DNA of 32,795 bases from a virus. Positions within the stretch are counted from its first letter, which is position 1, and every line of letters begins with the position of its first letter. Location of the stretch: the IMG/VR virus record IMGVR_UViG_3300028854_000040, positions 1 through 32,795 of that record; one strand, 5' to 3'. Of this stretch, positions 1,470-26,854 are shown piece after piece. The notes below the pieces were generated by a model, which was not told the DNA's origin, did no database searches, and saw only the letters and a list, made by a program, of their open reading frames with translations. Both the position numbers and the translations under genes were made by a program.

Positions 1470-4400
1470 TTATTGAATTATATCCTTTGCATTTATTCTT
1501 GCTTGCGTTAATAAAGAATCTACAGATAAGGTGCTTGAAGCTACTCCTTGATCTATAATATTTCCATTCTTATCCGTAACAACAACCCATTTATTTGCTC
1601 CAGATGTGTTAACTGTGTATTTATATCCTAATTTACTATGATATGTTGGTTGAAATGTCGTACCTTTATCTGTATTAACTACTGGACTTTGATTTGCTGA
1701 TGGAATTACTTGGTTATCATAAACGCCTGGATTATACAACGGATAATAAGTATCACCTGTTATAGCATCATGAGAAGTTATTCTATCATTTCTATCATCA
1801 TAAACACCTGTATTTGCGAAGAAATTAAAGGTAATTGCATTCTGTAATCTCGCAATAGGTCCTGTTAAATCTGAACCTCCAATAAATTTGAATGATAAAT
1901 TAACATTAGCTAACATCGGTTGAACTCCTATACCTTCTACATTCAAATCCCAGACCAGTGGTTCAAAATCAATATTTAAATTATCAAAAATAACCTTTGT
2001 ATTATAAAAATCTCCAATTCTAAGTACACAAATAGGTGACCTACCAAAAGATAAATTAGTTGCAACTCCAGCATTATTAACTGTATTACCCTGTCTCATA
2101 CATTGATGTAAAAAGGTTAACCTTGAATTAAATCCTTCAGGAGTTGTACTATGGAAAGCTGGACTAAAATATTTAATTTTTTCACTAAATTTATCAAATA
2201 TAAAATCTCCTGTTCCACCCTTATCCCCACCAAGTTTTTCAAAAAATTGAGCTTCATCATTATATAATTTTGAATTACTCCCATCAACTGGATTAGTTGC
2301 TGAATAACTATACATATCAACTTTTGCACGGGTAGCCAAACTTGAAATAGTTGTAGTTGATTGAATAACTGGTAAAGCATAAGTAGTTCCTGTTGGAGCA
2401 TTGAATATAGTTTCTGGATTTGTGGTTAAACGAACATAAACTACACGTTCTTTTTTCATTTCTAAAGAATTTGTAAGATTAGTATCCGATGGTCCAGTTT
2501 TATAAATTCCCTTTGATGTAATATTTTGAGATTTAATTGTTGGGCTGTATAAAATCATATATTTTCTTAACCAATTCTCAACTGTTTTTGCTCTATTATT
2601 TGAAAGTGTTATGTTTTGCGAATCACTTCCCTGATTACTTGCACATCCATTTATTTCAATTTTATTAATCGTTTTAAAGACCTCTAAAATAGACTGATCA
2701 GCACTATCATTATTTGCATCAACATAATTTAAAGTAGACAATAATTCAAAAAATGAATAATTATCACCAGAACCAACAATTGAATTTAAATTATTTGCGT
2801 TTGTATCTTTGTAGTTTGCATATATATCTGGTGAACTTGCTGGTAGATCTAAACCTTGATTTTCATAAGCAGAATCAACCTTATAATAAAATTTATTGTT
2901 TTGACATATGGCATCATTTTCTAAATTTAAACCCAACCAAGGACCATTTAAAATTTCATAACCATTTCCGCCAGACCAGTTACATCCTTCACCTTTACCT
3001 AAATAATTCATAACATCTCTTGGATCGGTATAATCTACTCCACTAAAATTATTAGGGAAATATATTTTAAATGTAAAAGTATTCGCTTTAGTTTGTACTA
3101 CTGGAACTGGTGGAGCAGGAGGTGTTGGATTTAAAATTGTATTATTTTCCAAATCAATTACATCTACTCCAGCAAATAAACGAAGATAATCATCATCTTG
3201 AATATTTACTCCGCTTGGATCTTTTTGCTTATAATAATTAATAATACTCGGATGATCCACAATAACTTTGAAACTTAATGTTCCGCTTCTTTCAGTGTTT
3301 AAATAAGTATATACAGGTTCTCCTCTTCCTATAAAATTATCGGAATTCCAATTGACATTAGTTTGATCTGTAAATTTAATTTCATAAGGAGGAAACCACA
3401 TTATTCTTCCACCATTAGGGCCGTCTTGTGAACTACCCTGAATTAAACTATCTAAAAAGCCTGATTGCTGTTTCCAAGCTAAATTCTCAATTGAAAACAT
3501 ATATTTATGTACGTCGTTCTTTTGTACAAAATCTTTATAAGGTGATATTTTAACAAATCCATCATCTTGTAAAACGCCATAAGTCTTCAATGCTTGAGCT
3601 CCTGGCCTTACACGCTTTAAATCGTTTTCTAATGTTTGAGTATTTTCAGTATCTGAATTAAATGGACGTATTAAATTTTTTATATTCCTGTATTGATTTT
3701 GAGAAGTCCAAATTCTACTATAATTAATCCCGTCTTTATTTTTTAAAGCTCTACCCTTGGTAATTATTCCAGCATCTCCCTTGGTATATTTAGGACCAGA
3801 ATTATCGTAATCAGTTACCAGTGAGTTTATTTTACCACTAATAAACATCTGTTGGGTTTTATATAATAAAGATTGTTTATTGGTAATTATAGAACTCGTA
3901 TCTATAACATTTCCTGGGTTATTTACATCAAAGACATATTGACCACTTGAAAGATTACTCCAAGACAAATCATTTTTATAAATATTAAAACTATTACCTC
4001 CATCTTGTTTTATATCACTAAAAAGATAAATTGGAAACACTCCACCTATTATATTTGAAAGTCCGCTTGATAGATTTAACTTAGTTGTATCTAATTTATC
4101 AATTGCATCAGCATAGGATAATGGTTTAGCTATCCACTTAATTAGATCGTCATTTTGACGCGTTTTATTGAGTACTGAGTTAGCTAACGATAAACCAAGA
4201 GATCGTAGTCCTATGGCACCTAATTTGCTTTCTGTGCCCAATGCAACACCTAAAGCTTCCCCTTCTAATGTATTCCCAATCTCAAAAGTTGAACTTACAT
4301 TGAAATTATTATTTCCTGTTATACTCATACCAACAGTATCACCTAATAAATACCCTAGAACTACATTGGCTGTTTGTTGAGCTATTCCTTCCGATGTTTT

Positions 4401-4697
4401 ATCAATATAGGTATAATCCTTGGTATAAATATTTTTTTGTTTTACGTAATCAACTATAGTAGAATCTAAGTCTCTGTAAGCGGAATAAAAATCATTTTGA
4501 ATAGTATTGTTGGTATAGGTTAACAAGCCATCAGGCGCAATATAATTTTTTAATGTTGGTACGGAATTATAAATATCAATAGATGTTCCTATTGGATCTA
4601 TTAAAGGAATTGTCACCATTGGATATTTACCGATGGTCTGCATTAATAAATTATCCCTTAATTTAGGTGAAACGCTATTGATATCTTTATTTAACAT
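1470..4697 (-). CDS. Large baseplate protein with embedded OmpA-like domain
   Basis: This 1075-residue virion protein has three recognisable parts. Residues ~385-510 contain a beta-rich segment with ERSGTLSFKVIVDHPSI, reminiscent of contractile-injection-system tube or hub-cap proteins. Residues ~535-760 look like an OmpA/peptidoglycan-binding domain: a beta strand FTFKIYFPNN, then an INGCASNQGS turn near 680, an LSNNRA helix start near 695 and a final VVYVRL strand. Residues ~845-975 (FHSTTPEGFNSRLTFLHQC, then RIGDFYNTKVIFDN) form a C-terminal structural domain. In OmpA proteins an Asp in the turn and the Arg of the LS-x-x-RA helix bind diaminopimelate; here the Arg is kept but the Asp position reads Ser/Asn. 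It lies between the tape measure and gp53-type genes, so a baseplate hub or wedge location is likely. A long non-coding leader precedes it. Confidence 0.7.
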   Translation of the reverse strand: MLNKDINSVSPKLRDNLLMQTIGKYPMVTIPLIDPIGTSIDIYNSVPTLKNYIAPDGLLTYTNNTIQNDFYSAYRDLDSTIVDYVKQKNIYTKDYTYIDKTSEGIAQQTANVVLGYLLGDTVGMSITGNNNFNVSSTFEIGNTLEGEALGVALGTESKLGAIGLRSLGLSLANSVLNKTRQNDDLIKWIAKPLSYADAIDKLDTTKLNLSSGLSNIIGGVFPIYLFSDIKQDGGNSFNIYKNDLSWSNLSSGQYVFDVNNPGNVIDTSSIITNKQSLLYKTQQMFISGKINSLVTDYDNSGPKYTKGDAGIITKGRALKNKDGINYSRIWTSQNQYRNIKNLIRPFNSDTENTQTLENDLKRVRPGAQALKTYGVLQDDGFVKISPYKDFVQKNDVHKYMFSIENLAWKQQSGFLDSLIQGSSQDGPNGGRIMWFPPYEIKFTDQTNVNWNSDNFIGRGEPVYTYLNTERSGTLSFKVIVDHPSIINYYKQKDPSGVNIQDDDYLRLFAGVDVIDLENNTILNPTPPAPPVPVVQTKANTFTFKIYFPNNFSGVDYTDPRDVMNYLGKGEGCNWSGGNGYEILNGPWLGLNLENDAICQNNKFYYKVDSAYENQGLDLPASSPDIYANYKDTNANNLNSIVGSGDNYSFFELLSTLNYVDANNDSADQSILEVFKTINKIEINGCASNQGSDSQNITLSNNRAKTVENWLRKYMILYSPTIKSQNITSKGIYKTGPSDTNLTNSLEMKKERVVYVRLTTNPETIFNAPTGTTYALPVIQSTTTISSLATRAKVDMYSYSATNPVDGSNSKLYNDEAQFFEKLGGDKGGTGDFIFDKFSEKIKYFSPAFHSTTPEGFNSRLTFLHQCMRQGNTVNNAGVATNLSFGRSPICVLRIGDFYNTKVIFDNLNIDFEPLVWDLNVEGIGVQPMLANVNLSFKFIGGSDLTGPIARLQNAITFNFFANTGVYDDRNDRITSHDAITGDTYYPLYNPGVYDNQVIPSANQSPVVNTDKGTTFQPTYHSKLGYKYTVNTSGANKWVVVTDKNGNIIDQGVASSTLSVDSLLTQARINAKDIIQ

Positions 4698-5089
4698 ATT
4701 GACTTATTTTATAAAATTTGAAAAAGAAAAACGTTTATTATTGAAATATAATTTTAAAACATCTTTCCTTTTATGATAAATACCTAAAAAATTATTTTTC
4801 TATTGGTATTTCTTAAATTATAACGCATTTTTAAATTACGTTCGTAAAATCAACCAAAAAAAATTTTAAAAAGACAACGGTTGGAAATAAGGCTGAAAGC
4901 CAAACGTATTGTTCTAAAATTTTTTTCCTAACATATGTTTTTAGAATATGTTTAACAATCGTTTAAAACGTTCGTAAATATTGAAATCAGATTTGAAATA
5001 AAAAAACGATTGTTGATAACACTTGTTGTTTTTATTTCAAAATATGTTTTTAGTGATTGAATTTGTTGGAATACGTTTAAACATTTGTT

Positions 5090-5161
5090 CTTAAGATTTT
5101 ACATTACGGAACGCGCCTATGCGCGATATACTGAAAATATTTTCAATAAACAAGTTATTTT
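5090..5161. repeat. 72-bp direct repeat, copy A (partner 5438-5509)
   Basis: Copy A aligns end to end with the sequence at 5438-5509. Both start CTTAAGATTTT(T)ACAT, pass through a GC-rich core (ACGCGCCTATGCGCG here, ACGGGCGCGCACGGG in the partner) and end with the identical 17-mer AATAAACAAGTTATTTT. The outer blocks are conserved while the core varies, which suggests functional constraint rather than recent duplication. Confidence 0.8.
5123..5153 (-). promoter_or_regulatory. Variant promoter in repeat copy A
   Basis: On the minus strand the sequence reads AAAATAACTTG, then exactly 20 nt, then TATATCGC. The -33 part and the 20-nt spacing match the five class 1 promoters of this window, but the -7 octamer TACATTTG is replaced. 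It points towards the OmpA-domain baseplate gene, with a leader of about 430 nt. It may be a promoter for a modified polymerase, or a decayed host-type promoter. Confidence 0.4.
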
Positions 5162-5437
5162 TCAAAAATTTTATTTTTTAACTAATAATTTTAAAAATTG
5201 TTTTTACGTTTTTAACTGTTTAAAAATTTTTTAAAAATTCTAAAATATTTTTGTAACATATGTTTAAACGATTGTTTTAACATTTGTTTTTCTTTTAAAA
5301 TTTGTTTTTAGAATTTTCTTACATATGTTTAAACATATTCTTAAAACGTATGTTAGAAAAACGTTTGGCTTTCAGCCTTATTTCAAATTTTGGTTTTTTA
5401 CGATTGTTTTAAAATGAAATTTGTTTAAAAATATTCT

Positions 5438-5509
5438 CTTAAGATTTTTACATAAGAACGGGCGCGCACGGGATGGTACGGATAATATTTTTAATAAACA
5501 AGTTATTTT
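5438..5509. repeat. 72-bp direct repeat, copy B (partner 5090-5161)
   Basis: This is the second copy of the element at 5090-5161, with the same CTTAAGATTTT start and the same terminal AATAAACAAGTTATTTT. The core is GC-rich (GGGCGCGCACGGG), striking in a region that is otherwise almost pure A/T. Confidence 0.8.
5471..5501 (-). promoter_or_regulatory. Variant promoter in repeat copy B
   Basis: The minus strand reads AAAATAACTTG, 20 nt, then TACCATCC. It shares the -33 block and spacing with copy A and with the class 1 promoters, again without the TTTG part of the -7 box. It lies 56 nt downstream of the tape-measure stop and points to the baseplate genes. Confidence 0.4.
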
Positions 5510-5564
5510 GAATAAATAATTTGAATAAAACAAAGATTTAACAATTTTTATAATTATCAACAAA

Positions 5565-8063
5565 TTAGAATGAATCTGGTCCCAATGGTCCACTATATCC
5601 ACCACCATTATCATCCCTATTATTAATCTGGCTTATTATACGCGACATTTCTCTAACAAACTGTGGGTTTCTCATTAATTCGCTTGCATCAACCCTCGAA
5701 GATCCACCACCAGCCATATTCAATGTAATAGCACCACTCAAATCAACCTTATGATTATTATTTGAGCTATTATTAGACCCGCTGCTTGAATTATTATTGC
5801 AGGATGGAGAAACACCCGTAAATATAGATGAAGTCTCATTACGTGGCATTATAGACTGCTGAATGGCACCTCCTGGCTTCATAGCATATACATCATCCTT
5901 TGTGTCCAACTTAATTGGTCTACCACCTCCTGATGGGATTAAAACGTCATTACCTGTTTCCCATCTTGATTCTGGATGTAAAGAGTCATGAATGTCCATT
6001 CCTGTATTTGCGGCATTTATTGCCAAACCAGCTACTGGACCAACTCCTGGTATAAAATTAGCGGCTCCTGCGGCAATATTCATACCAGCACTTCGCCAAT
6101 GGTTGTGAAACATATCATTAACAGCGAATCCAGCATCTACTAATCCTCCAGCAAATGGGATAGCTCTTGCCCCAGTTTCTAATCCTAAATTAGCTAAACT
6201 CTTTATTCCACTTCGAGCAGCATTTTTTCCAAACATCTGCCCAACATCTCCTAATACTTTTCCTCCGCCAGAAGAATTGGCAACATTTGAAATACCTTTA
6301 GCACCATTTTCAACAGTTGGCATTAAATAATGAAAAGCATCTAAAATATATTTTGCAACTAAATTAACAGCTGGTAATAATTGACCAACTATTGCGGTCA
6401 ATAACGATTTTATACCATTATCAATTATTTCTTTTATTCCAATTGTATTTTCAGCAATATCTGCTATATGCTGCGGTTCTGGTTTAAGATAAGCCAAATC
6501 CTTTGAATCTAAAGTCGTTATTGATTTTTGTGTGCCATTAACGTTAACACTATAACCCTTACCTTTTTCAAATGTAGCTAATGTAGCCAAAAGATTTTTT
6601 TGATCTTCTGTTTTAATATTTGTATTTAAAGAAACATCGTGTTGAATAGCTCCACGCTGAGCCTTCGTTCTAGCTGCTGTCATCATATCATCGAATGAAA
6701 TTCCAGCAGCTTCAGCAGCAGCCTTGATACGAATTTTCTCGTATCCGTTTTCATTCATTTTGCCTGTTGCTTTATCAATTGATATAACTCCATCTAACAT
6801 TTTTGAATAAGTTTCTGTTAAACCACCCATATCTGTTATTCCTTGATTCATAAGTTTCAGTGGATCAGCCATTTGACTAAAACTGCCACCGAGCACTTGG
6901 AGTGACGCTGCAGTTTTCAAGGCACCCTCTGGCGTCGAAATTTTATCTGCAAAAGCGGCAACAGATTCAAGTTTAATACCCATTTGGGTAGCATAAACCG
7001 TCATTTCTTTTACACCATCAACACCATTTTTGAAATTATAGGTATTAGCAAGTTTTAAATTACCTTCAAAGTTTTTAGCTGCGACACTTGCAGATACACC
7101 AGATTTTTTTGATAAATCAACCATACTCTGTAAAGTATCCATACTATCAGCAACTCCAGATCCAAACAGGTTCATATCTGCTGCCATCTGGCCTGTCGCC
7201 TCAACACCCAAACCTAATGCTACAGATGTATTGGCCATTGAAACCATATTTTCTTTTCCAAGCATTACCGATCTACCCATTTGATCAGTATAAGATGTTT
7301 GAAGCTTAACTAAATCTCCTGTCCCAACGCCAATTAATTGAGTTCTCCAAGCTATTTCACCAATATTTTTCTTTAGTTCACCAGATTCGTTTTTAGATAA
7401 TGAATAATTAGCCGACAACTTACTAATAGCACTATCGGAATCCAACATTATATCAAGAGCGTCACTAGCCTGTTTTAATAAAAATTTTCCAGTGGCCTTT
7501 CTAATATTATCAGCTGACTCTTTTCTTTTCTGCCTACCTTTTTCTAACTCTTCTTCTTTTTTTATAGCCTTTGCCTCATCTACGCCAGCATCTTTTATTA
7601 TTTGTGCTTTCTCTTCTTCTAATTTTATTTCTTTTTCTAATAATTTATATTTTTCAGCCTCTCTTTTATAATCATCCTCAGCTGTTTTTATCATTTTACC
7701 ATGAGCAACAAGTTGTGATTTAGTCATAGAAGCTGCTTTTGCATCTCTAAGTTGTTCTAATTCGCCTTGTTTTTTAATATAAATTAATTTTTGTTTATCT
7801 AATTTTTCATTCTCAGTTCCTAATTTTAGATTTGCTTGCGAATTTTTTTCTATTTTAGTTAATATATCAAGATATTTTTGGTTGTCTTGTAATTTTTTTG
7901 TAAGTAATTTACTCATTTTTTGAGCAGAATTTACATCTGTTTTAGATGTAGTTCCTCCTTTACTATCACCAGAGAGATTACCTTTACCAATTGTGGTAAT
8001 TAATTTTTCAAGTGTATCAGTTAATTTATTTATATCCCTTGATGTTAATACTGGATCTGGCAT
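5565..8063 (-). CDS. Tail tape measure protein
   Basis: This 832-residue protein has the usual tape-measure plan. Residues ~35-190 are Lys/Glu-rich, strongly helical and likely coiled coil. Residues ~190-530 are Ala/Gly/Ser/Thr-rich helical repeats (for example VSMANTSVALGLGVEATGQM). Residues ~540-690 hold hydrophobic segments (IKSLLTAIVGQLLPAVNLVA and a Gly/Ala stretch AAGAANFIPGVGPVAGLAI) of the type thought to insert in the host membrane during DNA ejection. The C-terminus is Asn/Ser-rich. Tape measures set tail length and are released into the host; this follows from the family. The ATG is 15 nt downstream of a TATTTATA element. It lies between the hub genes and the OmpA-domain baseplate gene, separated from the former by a divergent small-gene cassette. 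Confidence 0.8.
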   Translation of the reverse strand: MPDPVLTSRDINKLTDTLEKLITTIGKGNLSGDSKGGTTSKTDVNSAQKMSKLLTKKLQDNQKYLDILTKIEKNSQANLKLGTENEKLDKQKLIYIKKQGELEQLRDAKAASMTKSQLVAHGKMIKTAEDDYKREAEKYKLLEKEIKLEEEKAQIIKDAGVDEAKAIKKEEELEKGRQKRKESADNIRKATGKFLLKQASDALDIMLDSDSAISKLSANYSLSKNESGELKKNIGEIAWRTQLIGVGTGDLVKLQTSYTDQMGRSVMLGKENMVSMANTSVALGLGVEATGQMAADMNLFGSGVADSMDTLQSMVDLSKKSGVSASVAAKNFEGNLKLANTYNFKNGVDGVKEMTVYATQMGIKLESVAAFADKISTPEGALKTAASLQVLGGSFSQMADPLKLMNQGITDMGGLTETYSKMLDGVISIDKATGKMNENGYEKIRIKAAAEAAGISFDDMMTAARTKAQRGAIQHDVSLNTNIKTEDQKNLLATLATFEKGKGYSVNVNGTQKSITTLDSKDLAYLKPEPQHIADIAENTIGIKEIIDNGIKSLLTAIVGQLLPAVNLVAKYILDAFHYLMPTVENGAKGISNVANSSGGGKVLGDVGQMFGKNAARSGIKSLANLGLETGARAIPFAGGLVDAGFAVNDMFHNHWRSAGMNIAAGAANFIPGVGPVAGLAINAANTGMDIHDSLHPESRWETGNDVLIPSGGGRPIKLDTKDDVYAMKPGGAIQQSIMPRNETSSIFTGVSPSCNNNSSSGSNNSSNNNHKVDLSGAITLNMAGGGSSRVDASELMRNPQFVREMSRIISQINNRDDNGGGYSGPLGPDSF

Positions 8064-11034: not shown

Positions 11035-11769
11035 TCAGATTAAGTCAATTTGCCAGAAATCACTTGCTAAATTTGAGTTAGTTAGATATGTATATGGTAT
11101 CGTAAAATATCCAGCCTGTCCCCATGAAGAACCCCAGCTATTTCGAACAATGAAACGTTGTGTTGAGTCATCATAACCGACTGCAACAACAGCATGACCT
11201 CCAAGTAACTTTTCAGTTTTAGTAGGTAAATTAACAATACCCGTAGATTCAACACTCGCACTTTCAAACGATGTATATACGCTAAAACCAAAAACAAATG
11301 GGTAACCTAAAGCTAAGCAAGTTTTCATACTATTTAAATCTTGATTAACCGCCGAATATGTCTTAACAACTGTTTTTAATGCATCTTTATAAGACTTAGC
11401 CGTAGGTTTAGTTTTGAATTTTGAAATTGTATAAGGCCATTCAGTTTCTGGGCATACTCCTTGCGTATTAGCTGATTTAATTCCATCACGTATATTAGCT
11501 CCAGAATCTGTTTTAACAGTACCTTCAATAACTCGTTCATTATAATAAATAAATAATCGTGATGGTACAAAGTCAGGCTTCAATTCTTTATCTATTGCAA
11601 ATTCAAAGCTCCCTGCTATTGCATTAGCCGTGCAGGAACCTAATTGACCCTGGTCATAAACAGGTGGCATTTTAGGTCTTAAATCAACAGATGTTGGTAA
11701 TACAGCTATTGTTTGTGAGAATTGATAATCCCTAATATCGGGTAATTGTGGTTTCCATGAATATTTCAT
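11035..11769 (-). CDS. Papain-like (C1A) cysteine protease
   Basis: All papain catalytic positions are present: oxyanion Gln40 and nucleophile Cys46 in DQGQLGSC, His192 in GGHAVVAVGYD, and Asn210 in VRNSWGSSWGQAGYF. The N-terminus MKYSWKPQLPDIRDY is the W-x-P-x-x-PD-x-RD-x opening found in bacterial and viral C1A enzymes that lack a long inhibitory propeptide. No signal peptide is seen, so it probably acts in the infected cell or inside the virion. At 244 residues it is a complete domain. It lies between the tube/nuclease block and the baseplate hub genes and has a TATTTATA element 14 nt upstream, which indicates late expression. Roles could include processing of virion proteins or degrading a host target on entry; which one is not decidable from sequence. 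Confidence 0.88.
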   Translation of the reverse strand: MKYSWKPQLPDIRDYQFSQTIAVLPTSVDLRPKMPPVYDQGQLGSCTANAIAGSFEFAIDKELKPDFVPSRLFIYYNERVIEGTVKTDSGANIRDGIKSANTQGVCPETEWPYTISKFKTKPTAKSYKDALKTVVKTYSAVNQDLNSMKTCLALGYPFVFGFSVYTSFESASVESTGIVNLPTKTEKLLGGHAVVAVGYDDSTQRFIVRNSWGSSWGQAGYFTIPYTYLTNSNLASDFWQIDLI

Positions 11770-11813: not shown

Positions 11814-12311
11814 TTAAATGATTGGATTATTTTTCTTATGGAAGAATTCGCCCGTTTTCTTTTTCTCAATAATAATTTGTTTTTCTTTTTCTGCACCCGT
11901 TCGTTTTCGTAACATTTCCATAACAATTTCGGGATTTTTATGAATATCATATTCCCAAATTCTAATCAAAACAATTCCATTAACAGCTGCCCACCTATTT
12001 TTGGCTTCATCCGAACGTTTGTTTTTCTTTTGCATTCTTGATAATTTAGTTTGATCGTAAAACCTTGGATCTGAATGATAAAATTGGCCATCAATTTCGA
12101 TAAGTATATGAGAATCAGTAAGATAAAAATCCCAAACACGTTTCAATGATGGAAATTCTTTTTGATATTCATATTCAATTCCCAGTTTATCTAAAAATTC
12201 TTCTTTAAAATAAATTTCAAGTTTAGATGTACCATATCCACATTTATGTCCCTTAACTTCCTTTTTCTTTTTAGAATTAATACCAGTTGATTTATTAATC
12301 GGTTGTTTCAT
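11814..12311 (-). CDS. Vsr/DUF559-type endonuclease, probably homing-associated
   Basis: The 165-residue protein has a single PD-(D/E)xK-fold nuclease of the Vsr/DUF559 type. LEIYFKEEFLDKLGIEYEYQ (31-50) is the opening helix and strand, Asp61 (VWDFYL) and Glu72/Asp74 (ILIEIDGQFYHSD) are likely metal ligands, and VLIRIWEYDI (114-123) is the closing strand with a Trp seen in this family. Residues 1-28 are basic and may contact DNA. Its ATG overlaps the end of the upstream zinc-repeat nuclease gene by 17 nt, so the two nucleases are translated together. Neither has an obvious phage-structural role, and together they sit as an insertion between tube and protease genes, which fits free-standing homing endonucleases. 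A mismatch-repair-like nicking role is an alternative. Confidence 0.7.
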   Translation of the reverse strand: MKQPINKSTGINSKKKKEVKGHKCGYGTSKLEIYFKEEFLDKLGIEYEYQKEFPSLKRVWDFYLTDSHILIEIDGQFYHSDPRFYDQTKLSRMQKKNKRSDEAKNRWAAVNGIVLIRIWEYDIHKNPEIVMEMLRKRTGAEKEKQIIIEKKKTGEFFHKKNNPII

Positions 12312-13212
12312 TTCTAATTGAATTTATTAAGTCATCTAAAACGGATAAATCTTTTCTAATATAAATCATTTTGATTCCATTCTTAATACAGAGTTCTAAT
12401 TTTACTCTATCTCTATCCTGTCTTAAAATAAAATCTTTTTCTCCCCCATACCTTTCAATCGAAACAAAATGTTGCTCTCCTTGAACTTCAATAGCTATTT
12501 TTTGTTCTGGTAAATAAAAATCTAACGATAATCTCCTTATATATTTTAGCCATTTAAACCCCTTTTCTCTAATAAATTCTATATTATTATTTGTTAATAC
12601 AAAACTAACATATTCTTCAGTTTTACTCTTTTTATTACTATTACATTTTGGACAATTACTTCCATTTAAATGGTTGGCGGCTATTTGCCAAAATCCTCCA
12701 TGGCCTTCTTCTTTACATATTATATAAATATTTTTCAAAGCTTTTGTATAATTAGATTCTGAATAATCATATTTATCTCCATGAACCAATTTCGCTTTTT
12801 CTATCCATTCTTCTGTATTTGATTGTAGACTTCCACCACAAATTTGACATCCACATCCAGCCAAATGATCAAGTGGTTTTTGTATAAAATCTCCATGTTC
12901 TTGACATCCCATAATAACTGGGATTCTATTATTAATATATTCAACTTTTGAATAATTATATTTGTCTCCATGAACTATCTTCGCCTTAATTATAAATTCT
13001 TCTGTTGTTGATTTTATGTTCGGCCTACATTTATCACATCCTCTACCAAAAAGATGATCGGATGGTAATTGCCAGAATTCTCCGTGTATTGGACATATAA
13101 TACAAACTTTAATCTTACTATTAATATATTCAACTTTAGAATAATCATATTTACCATTGTGTTTTTCAGTTGCTCTTTCTATAAAATCTTTTGTTGTTAA
13201 TTTTCTTGGCAT
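12295..13212 (-). CDS. Zinc-repeat (DUF723-like) homing-type endonuclease
   Basis: The 305-residue protein consists of three tandem ~55-residue repeats and a C-terminal nuclease. Each repeat reads F-I-x-x-A-x-x-x-HG-D-KYDYSKVEYIN, then a C-x2-H (or C-x4-H) pair and a C-x2-C pair: C40/H43/C59/C62, C103/H106/C122/C125 and C166/H171/C187/C190, with exactly 15 residues between His and the next Cys every time. These look like zinc-binding DNA-recognition modules. Residues ~196-305 are a PD-(D/E)xK-type nuclease with Asp231 (LSLDFYLP) and Glu242 (IAIEVQGEQHF). A closely related protein with five repeats is encoded at 25529-26854. Free-standing homing endonuclease is the best reading. A TATTTATA element lies 14 nt upstream of the ATG. 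Confidence 0.75.
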   Translation of the reverse strand: MPRKLTTKDFIERATEKHNGKYDYSKVEYINSKIKVCIICPIHGEFWQLPSDHLFGRGCDKCRPNIKSTTEEFIIKAKIVHGDKYNYSKVEYINNRIPVIMGCQEHGDFIQKPLDHLAGCGCQICGGSLQSNTEEWIEKAKLVHGDKYDYSESNYTKALKNIYIICKEEGHGGFWQIAANHLNGSNCPKCNSNKKSKTEEYVSFVLTNNNIEFIREKGFKWLKYIRRLSLDFYLPEQKIAIEVQGEQHFVSIERYGGEKDFILRQDRDRVKLELCIKNGIKMIYIRKDLSVLDDLINSIRNETTD

Positions 13213-19261: not shown

Positions 19262-21523
19262 TTAATATGTTACCAGCCAACCCATACTTGTTAATGTTGT
19301 GTAATCTGATGTGGTTAAAGATGAAGCACCTGGATTACCTGCAAATTCTAATCTGTTTGGGTAACTTGTGTCTATGTTTACCAAGCCATTTGTGATAGTT
19401 TGATTAATTATAGATAGTATATTAGTTCTATCCAATTGATTATTTTGGACCTGTAATTTTGTCATCTGAGTACATCCACTAACGTTTACAGAAGTAAGTA
19501 AATTATCTGTGAATGCAGCCACTACTAAATTATTTAAGCCAGATAAATCCATTGTGGTAAATTGATTAAAATCTCCAGTGAAGTAATTAATAGTTGTATT
19601 AGGTTTAGTAATTCCAGTTAAATCATTTACATCAACATATAATTCTTTTAATGATGTACAACCAGATATATTAATATTAGTTAAATCGTTATTATTTGCA
19701 TATATATATTGTAACTGATTTAAACCTGAAAAATTAAGTGATGAAAGTATATTATTTTTACAATTTACTGTTGTTAAATTAGGACATCCAGTTAAAGATA
19801 AAGTAGATAAATTATTTAGATAACAATATAAAGTACTTAAATTACCACAATTTTGAACATTAAGAGTTGTTAGACTATTAAAATTAACGGTATTAAGTGT
19901 TGTAATTAATGTATTATTACAATCTAAACTTATTAAATTACTTGAATTATCAATAACAATATCTGTTAATTGATTACCACCACAACTCAAATGTAATAAT
20001 GATTGTAAATCCAATAAATTTAGAACGCCAGAAAATACTGAATTTGTTCCTCCTAAATTAAAAGTGGTAGTTGCCTTTGGCACGCTTAACATCACGTTTC
20101 CTTTAACAGAAGTGGATTGGTTTATGCTATCAGAATAAACTACAGACCCATCTATTTTTTTAAAACCAATAATATTATCAGCAGAAATAATTTCATAAGT
20201 AGAACCTGTTGTTAAACTAAGACCACTTATAATTGTTGGGTTAATTACTGGAAAATTTAAAAAATCTATATTACTCAAATTATCATCCAACATTCGTTTT
20301 GCTACAGGTGAGTTTGGTAATAAATCATCGTAAGTTAAAAAATGACTTAAACCATGTGAACCTTCCAAATCATCAGCCAACATATTTTTGTAATCCGTAT
20401 TTTCAGAATAATTATCCTTGATATATTGAATTGCAGCGTTGGTGTTAATAATGCCGAAACCCATATACATATTCCAATTATATGTATAAACCCCATCAAC
20501 TACGGTTGTTAAAGAAGCTGTTTTTCTGGCTGATAAACGAACTAATGACCAATTTGCCCCAGTAAGAACCTGTATCTTTTTTAATTTAGCGCCAACAGTT
20601 GCCGTAGTGGGCGATTGTTCCTGAAGTTCTTCGTAAAACTCTACCCCATAACCAAAAGAAGATGTCCAACCAGTAGGTGCTTGTTCCAAAGTAGTTCCAG
20701 GATTACAAGCACTAACCTGTATAACATTATCAAAAAAATAATCTGGATTATATGTTGAACCCGTGAATGAATCATCAACAAATCCATTATTGTGCCGATT
20801 GCGTACATTTTCGAAATGAGAACATACTGTTAAAATATTTGCGTTAGAACCTTGTTCTTCAGAAATACCAACACCAACAAAAGGTTTTAAATATAAATCA
20901 CAACCCTTAATAGCAGCATAATTAGCTTTAAAATTAGCATTTAACATTCCATAACCAGTGAGTGGGTCTAATTCTGACTGAATTCTAATACCTTTATATT
21001 CTGGATATACAGCATCCCACCATGTATGGGCAGTATAAGTCGAATGATTTGTATCGCCTAAATCGTGATCAGATATAAATCCATCTCCTAATACCTGTTT
21101 TTTACCATCATATCTTACGCCTATTGAATCAATGATGTTATAACTAAGATAAACTATATCAAAATCATTATCCTCCCTTAAAAGCCCTTGTGCATCTTTT
21201 ATATAAAAACCACTAAAAGGAACTCCATTCCAAGTATCGGAAGATGGATAATTAATAATTGGATCTAAATCTTTTGTTCCAGAAACAGAATTAATAGAAA
21301 GTGATACATCTGTAACTTCTTTATTAGTATTTAACAACCCACTATAAGGAATCATTATAAACCCACTATTCCAATTAATTTCTTGTTTAATAAGCACTAA
21401 ATTAAACTGCGTAGAAGTTCCACCAGTAATAACAATATTACCTATAGTATCATCAACATACCCTTTAGTGGCAAGATCACCGCCGCCAATTATATCCTCT
21501 ATTTTAATTATTTCTTGGGTCAT
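19262..21523 (-). CDS. Tail fibre with subtilase-like and LRR regions
   Basis: The 753-residue protein has three parts. The N-terminus has the fibre-type segment GGGDLATKGYVDDTIG (residues ~13-28). Residues ~130-370 show a pattern reminiscent of the S8 subtilase fold: GYGMLNANF near 188, FDNVIQVSACNPG, SSFGYGVEF, QSPTTATVGAKL near 303 and MGFGIINTNAAI. Residues ~500-715 are ten or so leucine-rich repeats of the L-x-x-L-x-C-x-x-N-x-L type common in Bacteroidota surface proteins. The LRR tail is the likely receptor-contact part. It lies 2 nt downstream of the beta-helix spike gene in a run of adsorption genes. The protease resemblance is weak and the expected catalytic His is not evident, so it may be an inactive fold. 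Confidence 0.65.
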   Translation of the reverse strand: MTQEIIKIEDIIGGGDLATKGYVDDTIGNIVITGGTSTQFNLVLIKQEINWNSGFIMIPYSGLLNTNKEVTDVSLSINSVSGTKDLDPIINYPSSDTWNGVPFSGFYIKDAQGLLREDNDFDIVYLSYNIIDSIGVRYDGKKQVLGDGFISDHDLGDTNHSTYTAHTWWDAVYPEYKGIRIQSELDPLTGYGMLNANFKANYAAIKGCDLYLKPFVGVGISEEQGSNANILTVCSHFENVRNRHNNGFVDDSFTGSTYNPDYFFDNVIQVSACNPGTTLEQAPTGWTSSFGYGVEFYEELQEQSPTTATVGAKLKKIQVLTGANWSLVRLSARKTASLTTVVDGVYTYNWNMYMGFGIINTNAAIQYIKDNYSENTDYKNMLADDLEGSHGLSHFLTYDDLLPNSPVAKRMLDDNLSNIDFLNFPVINPTIISGLSLTTGSTYEIISADNIIGFKKIDGSVVYSDSINQSTSVKGNVMLSVPKATTTFNLGGTNSVFSGVLNLLDLQSLLHLSCGGNQLTDIVIDNSSNLISLDCNNTLITTLNTVNFNSLTTLNVQNCGNLSTLYCYLNNLSTLSLTGCPNLTTVNCKNNILSSLNFSGLNQLQYIYANNNDLTNINISGCTSLKELYVDVNDLTGITKPNTTINYFTGDFNQFTTMDLSGLNNLVVAAFTDNLLTSVNVSGCTQMTKLQVQNNQLDRTNILSIINQTITNGLVNIDTSYPNRLEFAGNPGASSLTTSDYTTLTSMGWLVTY

Positions 21524-25528: not shown

Positions 25529-26854
25529 ATGCCTAAAAAATTAACAACAGAAGAATTTATTAAAAGATCAAATTTAAAACACAATAATAAATATGATTAT
25601 TCCAAAACAGAATACATTAACAATTACACACCAGTGTGCATAATATGTCACGAAAAAAATGAAAATGGAATTGAGCACGGTGAGTTTTTGCAACTTCCAT
25701 CATCTCATATGAACGGGGCAAAATGCACAAAATGCCCAAATTATACAATTGGTGATTTTATTAAAAAAGCGTTATTAAAACACAACAATAAATATTCTTA
25801 TGAAAAATCAGAATATTTTGGTTGTAACATACCAATTTGTATTACATGTCTTATTCATGGAGATTTCTGGCAGTTACCGAAGTCTCATCTTGATGGACAG
25901 GGTTGTTCAAAATGTGGTTTTGAAAAATTATCAAAATTATATATTTCAAATAAAAAAGAATTTATAGAGAAATCAATTAAAGTTCATGGAGACAAATACG
26001 ATTATTCTAAGGTTAAATATGTAAATGGAAATACTAAAGTAGATATTATATGTAAAGAACATGGGTTATTTTCAATAGAGCCAGGGCAACATTTATTAGG
26101 GCGCGGATGTAAATATTGTTCTGAGCATAAATTTAATACAGAAATATTCATAGAAAAATCAAATAAAAAACATAATTTTAAATATAATTATTCGAAGATT
26201 GTATATAAATCATTTTTAGAAAATGTAATTATTGGGTGTCATATTCATGGTGACTTTGAACAAACTCCAGCAACACATCTAAATGGAGGCGGTTGTCCTT
26301 ATTGTGCAAATAATAAATCAAATACTGAAGTATTTATCGCCAAATCAATTTTAATACATGGTGATAAATATGATTATTCAAAAGTAATTTATATATCCAA
26401 AACTGAAAAAGTTTGTATTATATGTCCAAAACACGGAGAATTTTGGCAAGCTCCAAGAGATCATATAAGGGGAGCTGGTTGTCAGAAATGTAAGGAGAGT
26501 CTATTAGAAACAAAGATACGTGTTATGTTGGAAAATAATAAGATTAATTATTCATTTGAAGGGCGTTTTAAATGGCTTGGTAGACAATCATTAGACTTTT
26601 ACTTACCAGAATATAATATTGCTATCGAATGTCAAGGACAGCAACATTTCAGGCCATTGGAAGTTTTCGGTGGAATTAAACCGTACAAAAAAGCTGTATT
26701 AATGGATTCAAATAAATTCAACCTTTGTAAAGAAAATGGTTTAAAATTATTTTATTTCGCGAATGAAGTGGTTGATGATTATCTTGATAAAATATATGTT
26801 GATAAACAAGAACTCTTAGAAGAAATATTAAAACATCCAATTATTCAAAACTAA
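25529..26854 (+). CDS. Zinc-repeat (DUF723-like) homing-type endonuclease, five repeats
   Basis: A 441-residue paralogue of the protein at 12295-13212: both begin MP(R/K)KLTT(K/E)(D/E)FI. It has five repeats with putative zinc ligands C40/H50/C66/C69, C107/H110/C126/C129, C175/H178/C194/C197, C237/H240/C256/C259 and C299/H302/C318/C321. The first has a seven-residue insertion between Cys and His; the spacing from His to the CxxC is 15 residues in all. The C-terminal nuclease (~328-441) has Asp356 (QSLDFYLP) and Glu367 (IAIECQGQQHF), again PD-(D/E)xK-like. The gene sits after the helicase terminator and 6 nt before the next gene. Homing endonuclease is the best reading. Confidence 0.75.
   Translation: MPKKLTTEEFIKRSNLKHNNKYDYSKTEYINNYTPVCIICHEKNENGIEHGEFLQLPSSHMNGAKCTKCPNYTIGDFIKKALLKHNNKYSYEKSEYFGCNIPICITCLIHGDFWQLPKSHLDGQGCSKCGFEKLSKLYISNKKEFIEKSIKVHGDKYDYSKVKYVNGNTKVDIICKEHGLFSIEPGQHLLGRGCKYCSEHKFNTEIFIEKSNKKHNFKYNYSKIVYKSFLENVIIGCHIHGDFEQTPATHLNGGGCPYCANNKSNTEVFIAKSILIHGDKYDYSKVIYISKTEKVCIICPKHGEFWQAPRDHIRGAGCQKCKESLLETKIRVMLENNKINYSFEGRFKWLGRQSLDFYLPEYNIAIECQGQQHFRPLEVFGGIKPYKKAVLMDSNKFNLCKENGLKLFYFANEVVDDYLDKIYVDKQELLEEILKHPIIQN

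Follow-up and report, generated by a model that had tools for sequence, protein, structure and literature searches.

A conserved non-coding island with tandem promoter-like units in the tail module of a phage probably infecting Bacteroidota

Bacteroidota promoters of the sigma-ABfr type carry a -33 TTTG and a -7 TAnnTTTG element (PMC7366714). In phage T4, a minimal replication origin consists of a promoter and an A+T-rich downstream element, and unrelated A+T-rich DNA can take the place of the unwinding element, according to the part of the T4 literature that we draw on here (PMC3016281). Here we compare with these systems, and with the operator arrays and iterons of phages and plasmids, a non-coding island in the tail module of a virus record. 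Like sigma-ABfr promoters (PMC7366714), the units of this island have a -33 TTG, the same spacing, the GTA with which the -7 box starts and a lineage-specific co-variation with the phage's other promoters; unlike them, all six have a GC core where the TTTG half of the -7 box would lie, and they occur once per record (twice in the window) with no coding gene directly behind them. As in T4 oriF and oriG, a non-late promoter is followed by an A+T-rich element, whereas the T4 minimal origins of that account are ~100 bp long with a MotA-dependent promoter, and a conserved leader or palindrome array of the island's kind is not described in that part of the T4 literature (PMC3016281). As in operator arrays and iterons, multiple palindromes of ~10 bp are spaced at 12-14 bp within one intergenic region, with the difference that the palindrome sequence changes between lineages and that the binding protein is only putative.

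The window, i.e. the whole stretch of DNA that was analysed, is a virus record of 32,795 bases and probably a fragment. The phage host is probably a member of the Bacteroidota, judging from the promoter type. The initial annotation had singled out an 867-bp non-coding gap, and this gap is real, repeat-organised and conserved (Table 1): gene calling by simple ORF rules gave no credible gene between 4698 and 5564, and no conserved ORF was found in the island. Comparison with cultured phages returned low-complexity matches only at the DNA level and no match for the baseplate proteins. Elsewhere in the window, the tail module encodes a papain-family cysteine protease-like protein (11035-11769; Pfam PF00112, E 1.9e-19), the structural module encodes a 753-aa protein with a leucine-rich-repeat domain (19262-21523), and three HNH/homing-endonuclease-like ORFs (11814-12311, 12295-13212 and 25529-26854) lie in or beside structural genes.

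Table 1. Coordinates of the island, its parts and its flanking genes in the window
Feature	Position	Strand	Remarks
Whole non-coding island, 867 bp	4698..5564	-	between the 832-aa tape-measure-like and the 1075-aa baseplate genes
1075-aa baseplate-region protein, OmpA-like domain; downstream gene	1470..4697	-	
832-aa protein; upstream gene	5565..8063	-	tape-measure-like, inferred from position and composition, without a family match
Upstream unit, promoter upstream half AATAACTTGTTTATTAAAAATATTATCCGTA (-33 TTG, 19-nt spacer, GTA)	5477..5507	-	PWM rank 5
Upstream unit, GC core CCCGTGCGCGCCCG, at the expected place of the -7 TTTG and start site	5459..5472	-	
Upstream unit, leader ATGTAAAAATCTTAAGA	5437..5453	-	
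Upstream unit, inverted copy of the GGCTGAAAGCC hairpin element, one 24-bp inverted-repeat arm	5361..5384	-	within the upstream unit
Upstream unit, palindrome array	5242..5361	-	exact copies at 5255, 5267, 5279, 5345, plus near-copies
Downstream unit, promoter upstream half AATAACTTGTTTATTGAAAATATTTTCAGTA	5129..5159	-	PWM rank 6, score 24.1
Downstream unit, GC core CGCGCATAGGCGCG	5112..5125	-	
Downstream unit, leader ATGTAAAATCTTAAGA	5089..5104	-	
Downstream unit, palindrome array	4930..5089	-	exact copies at 4930, 4954, 5005, 5080, plus near-copies
Terminator-like element ACGTTTGGCTTTCAGCCTTATTTCCAACCGTTGTCTTTTT	4868..4907	-	conserved in L012 and L009
Late-type motif TATTTATCATAAA	4770..4782	-	directly upstream of the baseplate gene; recurs before other minus-strand structural genes

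The island holds two units read on the minus strand, each laid out as promoter upstream half, GC core, leader and palindrome array. Both start with AATAACTTGTTTATTNAAAATATTNTCNGTA, followed by the GC cores CCCGTGCGCGCCCG and CGCGCATAGGCGCG. The first part is the upstream half, TTG-N19-GTA, of the phage's ordinary host-type promoter, and the GC core stands in place of the TTTG of the -7 box. The third part, a near-invariant leader of the form GTTC..ATGTAAAA(A)TCTTAAGA, opens into an A/T-rich stretch with the fourth, an array of 10-bp palindromes AACRWWYGTT. The downstream unit closes with ACGTTTGGCTTTCAGCCTTATTTCC and a T-run, and the inverted copy of this element in the upstream unit creates a 24-bp inverted repeat. 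Located 3' of the units and ahead of the baseplate gene are a hairpin with a T-run and the late-type motif TATTTATMATAAA.

The repeats listed in the initial annotation are all present. The perfect inverted repeat has 24-bp arms (4884-4907 and 5361-5384) with imperfect extensions (53-56 bp, 75-77%) and goes beyond shuffled sequence: a perfect arm of at least 24 bp occurred in one of 500 Markov shuffles, and one with at least 8 G/C in none of the 500, the real arm containing 10. The two direct repeats with GC cores correspond to the two units, 348 bp apart, and align locally with a score of 49 vs a maximum of 25 among 300 shuffle pairs; the repeat finder breaks them into pieces of 71 and 34 nt with 72-79% identity. 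The repeated 11-mers, AACAATCGTTT (4954, and inverted at 5004 and 5266) and ACGTTCGTAAA (4838 and 4968), are in part members of the wider palindrome family AACRWWYGTT. As for the near-symmetry about 5130, it applies to the inverted-repeat arms only (~5134), whereas the main organisation is a tandem duplication of same-direction units with a 348-bp period, read on the minus strand, and not a dyad. The inverted arm at 5361-5384 was not seen in the relatives, which carry the other arm only.

The ordinary promoters of these phages, ACTTGTTTTTCT...GTACATTTG, are by their sequence of the Bacteroidota type, and their spacer measures 19 nt in 28 of 30 canonical matches from four records. All six units keep the TTG-N19-GTA spacing. 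With a PWM that spans six bases before the TTG through the GTA, and from which the island units were left out, the two units of the window score 29.0 and 24.1, directly behind the four canonical promoters, and the site at rank 7 scores 15.0. In G001 the unit ranks 11th, among canonical promoters; the remaining sites of the top 18 all run on into a -7 box, and the units are the only high scorers without a following WTTTG. The tandem promoter units that had been proposed are thus borne out in their anatomy, their supposedly structured leader being a different matter (see below). In G006, the canonical promoters read TTTGGTTT..TTTTTCGTA and the island unit has the same form, scoring 28.0 with the G006 matrix vs 13.3 with the G000/G001 matrix. 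Such a change of the -33 half together with that phage's other promoters is to be expected only if the half is recognised, so that the unit is almost certainly a working promoter.

The -7 box TAnnTTTG is absent from all six units, which read TACCATCC, TATATCGC, TAGAATCG, TACATCCC, TAAGTCCG and TATATCGC instead. The units are therefore a variant rather than plain members of the sigma-ABfr class, and since the TTTG is missing from every one of them, the strength and even the activity of the promoter are uncertain. The GC core forms an alternating pyrimidine-purine run in several copies, a pattern that need not be meaningful given that the differences between copies are mostly transitions. Canonical Bacteroidota-type promoters are also found on the plus strand of the window (8379, 14398, 23246 and 29923), where they precede plus-strand genes inside or beside the minus-strand tail module.

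The relatives are metagenome contigs only, found via the baseplate protein (L009 and L010/L011/L012), the sheath (L115/L116) or the leader pattern (L134), and the unit is present in five lineages only. The four lineages other than the window have one clear unit each at the same gap position, with baseplate proteins 77, 80, 47 and 50% identical to that of the window; the upstream protein, complete in three of these lineages, has 76, 54 and 41% identity. The initial annotation would have been contradicted had close relatives lacked the gap or carried an unrelated one; they have it, and it is homologous. The leader persists while the flanking proteins drop to 41-54% identity, being invariant except for one A (six copies, five lineages), and was found at this locus only in the records searched. 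A core HMM of 98 positions matches these sites with E<1e-16 and has no other significant match in six records, including the 147-kb G001. In ~70 more distant homologues, mostly with 30-45% identity over the whole protein and higher identity in conserved segments, the gap is mostly ~40 bp and the core is absent, indicating that the island is a feature of one clade. As a site, it is conserved and probably functional.

Unrelated viral contigs and genomes also contain matches to the leader motif; these have no GC core and were set aside as chance matches. All six leader copies contain an ATG immediately followed by TAA (window 5453-5448 and 5104-5099, minus strand), which could be a minimal ORF of start and stop codon but is inseparable from conservation of the DNA. 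A short peptide after the leader (MFK..., noticed by eye) was rejected, as the upstream unit and L134 do not have it.

Eight of the 11 exact AACRWWYGTT copies in the window fall in the gap, where 0.18 would be expected. With one mismatch allowed, the island is the record's densest 300 bp for this palindrome in G000, G001/G002, G003 and G005 (in G001, 11 sites vs 5 in the next-best 300 bp), and in G006 the same locus is densest for another palindrome, ATAATATTAT. As in an iteron or operator array, one short motif is dense here and not elsewhere. Positions R4 and Y7 vary independently, as half-sites would. Palindromes that are retained while their sequence changes, at a spacing of 12-14 bp, fit putative sites of a dimeric protein with evolving specificity. 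They would fit hairpins too, against which stand the equal folding of both strands and the lack of a common fold.

Given the lineage-matched promoter half, the constrained leader, the unique palindrome array, the conserved position and the tandem duplication, all established by sequence and comparison, we believe with a probability of roughly 75% that the island is a functional promoter-driven untranslated unit. Transcription by host RNA polymerase, which a phage protein would either assist or hold back, would start in the GC core and produce a non-coding RNA of ~250-300 nt on the late-gene strand. The palindromes would be operator sites bound by dimers of a fast-evolving phage protein that gates transcription, and the unit would set the timing with which transcription enters the baseplate region. 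To this mechanism as a whole, in which regulated promoter-plus-untranslated-leader units stand in tandem, are gated through operators and take part in the control of the baseplate operon, we give slightly less than even odds. The locus is a constrained non-coding one in a phage group known here from metagenome contigs only, and it shows a division of the genome between host-type promoters and a separate late-type motif. It also provides one small DNA segment in which to ask whether, and for what purpose, the phage uses a promoter without the -7 TTTG.

The initial annotation had also considered control of the baseplate genes by the units, which is unproven: a late-type motif of the gene's own is present at 4770-4782, and the terminator-like element lies in between. 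The two units sit ahead of this motif and separate from it, and with such a motif in place they need not be the main promoter of the gene. The motif TATTTATAWTAAA, which resembles the T4 late motif TATAAATA, often lies ~10-30 nt upstream of structural-gene starts on the same strand (of the intergenic matches, 12 of 15 in the window and 31 of 46 in G001). In this phage group it is likely a late promoter or a motif of the start region. Its sites on the minus strand of the window are 4770-4782, 8074, 13222, 14267, 17660, 23219 and 29592, and there are many in G001.

A generic terminator scan called nothing in the island, including the element at 4868-4907, and an intrinsic terminator is clear in L226/L228 only. 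In these two and in L191, all distant relatives, the same gap contains a complete TTG-N19/20-TATTTTTG promoter, then almost pure A/T sequence, a hairpin with T7 (in L226/L228 a perfect stem, GGCACA-TAT-TGTGCC, plus T7) and a late-like motif. These contigs share with the window the gene neighbours and the order of promoter, A+T-rich stretch, terminator-like hairpin and late-like motif, but differ from it in having an intact TATTTTTG -7 box and no GC core, leader motif or AACRWWYGTT array. Their layout suggests repeated retention, or gain, of a short promoter-terminator unit ahead of the gene. In L115 both the GGCTTTCAGCC element and an obvious late motif are missing, so that there the unit would run straight into the gene. 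As most of the distant relatives lack the island, baseplate expression in general does not depend on it. We rejected GGCTTTCAGCC as a widespread element: it has ~100 exact 15-mer matches in viral contigs, and extended matches in a comparable context occur in this group only.

A serious rival, if on our analysis an unlikely one, is an origin that, like T4 oriF/oriG, is primed by transcription, a replication origin being among the functions initially proposed. An early-type promoter in the late tail region would yield an RNA; its GC-rich 5' end would anchor an R-loop across the A+T-rich array, the RNA would prime DNA synthesis, and the palindromes would bind a putative initiator. Indeed, the island has the promoter followed by an A+T-rich unwinding element that characterises T4-type R-loop origins, matching the minimal origin as laid out in the T4 account used here (PMC3016281), its downstream sequence turns over yet stays 78-94% A+T, and it is found at one place per record with an iteron-like array of palindromes. 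Against an origin, the island ranks among the least stable ~1%, yet both the window and G001 contain a less stable region, so that low stability fails as a sign unique to it; GC skew follows the gene strand and was rejected as an origin signal; no initiator was identified; and the island is missing from most of the distant relatives with the same genes. A more specific version, which strikes us as rather improbable, takes the island as a dedicated initiation locus, present in essentially one copy, of a large Bacteroidota myophage, in which an alternating C/G dyad core replaces the -7 box, a phage factor is needed, and the untranslated transcript opens the palindrome array and starts genome replication. 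If this were true, a T4-like transcription-primed origin would have evolved on a Bacteroidota promoter.

Rather doubtful, too, is a gene for a trans-acting small non-coding RNA, made up of the promoter, a conserved 5' seed (GUUCnUnAUGUAAAAAUCUUAAGA), an A/U-rich body and a terminator. Conservation is strongest just downstream of the promoter, where a seed is expected, and a terminator-like element is present in the window, L009 and L012, while the corresponding position of L226/L228 holds a clear terminator; L115 and L134, by contrast, do not have the same terminator and the L226 group does not have the seed. Neither conserved RNA secondary structure nor covariation was found: RNAalifold, run with five units, returned an unfavourable covariation term and no supported common structure, folding z-scores were similar on the sense and antisense strands, i.e. 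there was no strand-specific RNA fold, and Rfam returned no match above threshold and one meaningless match below it. With sense folding equal to antisense and no common fold, the "structured leader" of the initial annotation is not supported. The body sequence and the array are not conserved either, so that a small RNA explains the conserved 5' leader and not the missing conserved structure or body.

A packaging (pac/cos) or recombination site, also suggested initially, would suit the unique place per record and the repeats but is very improbable and unsupported, as no terminase, integrase or recombinase gene was recognised nearby, a Pfam search for one terminase family in five records found none, and the island is missing from most of the distant relatives. 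PHROG terminase matches of the G001 protein at 43368-45887 are better explained as a helicase. Least probable of all, to the point of being nearly negligible, is an invertible promoter segment in which the 453 bp between the 24-bp inverted repeats could flip with the downstream promoter: the perfect inverted repeat does surround this promoter, but L009 and L012 have one arm only, none was seen in L115 or L134, and a PHROGs scan of the 20 larger ORFs turned up no recombinase.

Some relatives show peculiarities at this gap. A distant one (L196, 30% identity) has an alternating pyrimidine-purine GC-rich run of 18-20 nt, CACGCACGCACGTGCGCATA, at ~2260-2280, which may be a terminator, an analogue of the GC core or chance. 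In L134, the baseplate gene is apparently broken by a frameshift or stop after ~50 codons (near 1385), which is either a sequencing error or real. Weak inverted core-like matches near the main one (G006 43455-43496 and 43820-43847) suggest that the L134 island holds extra core copies too. Furthermore, a TnpB-like gene of the IS605 family (2399-3724, minus strand; recognised by eye) is inserted in this island and ends beside inverted GC-core sequence.
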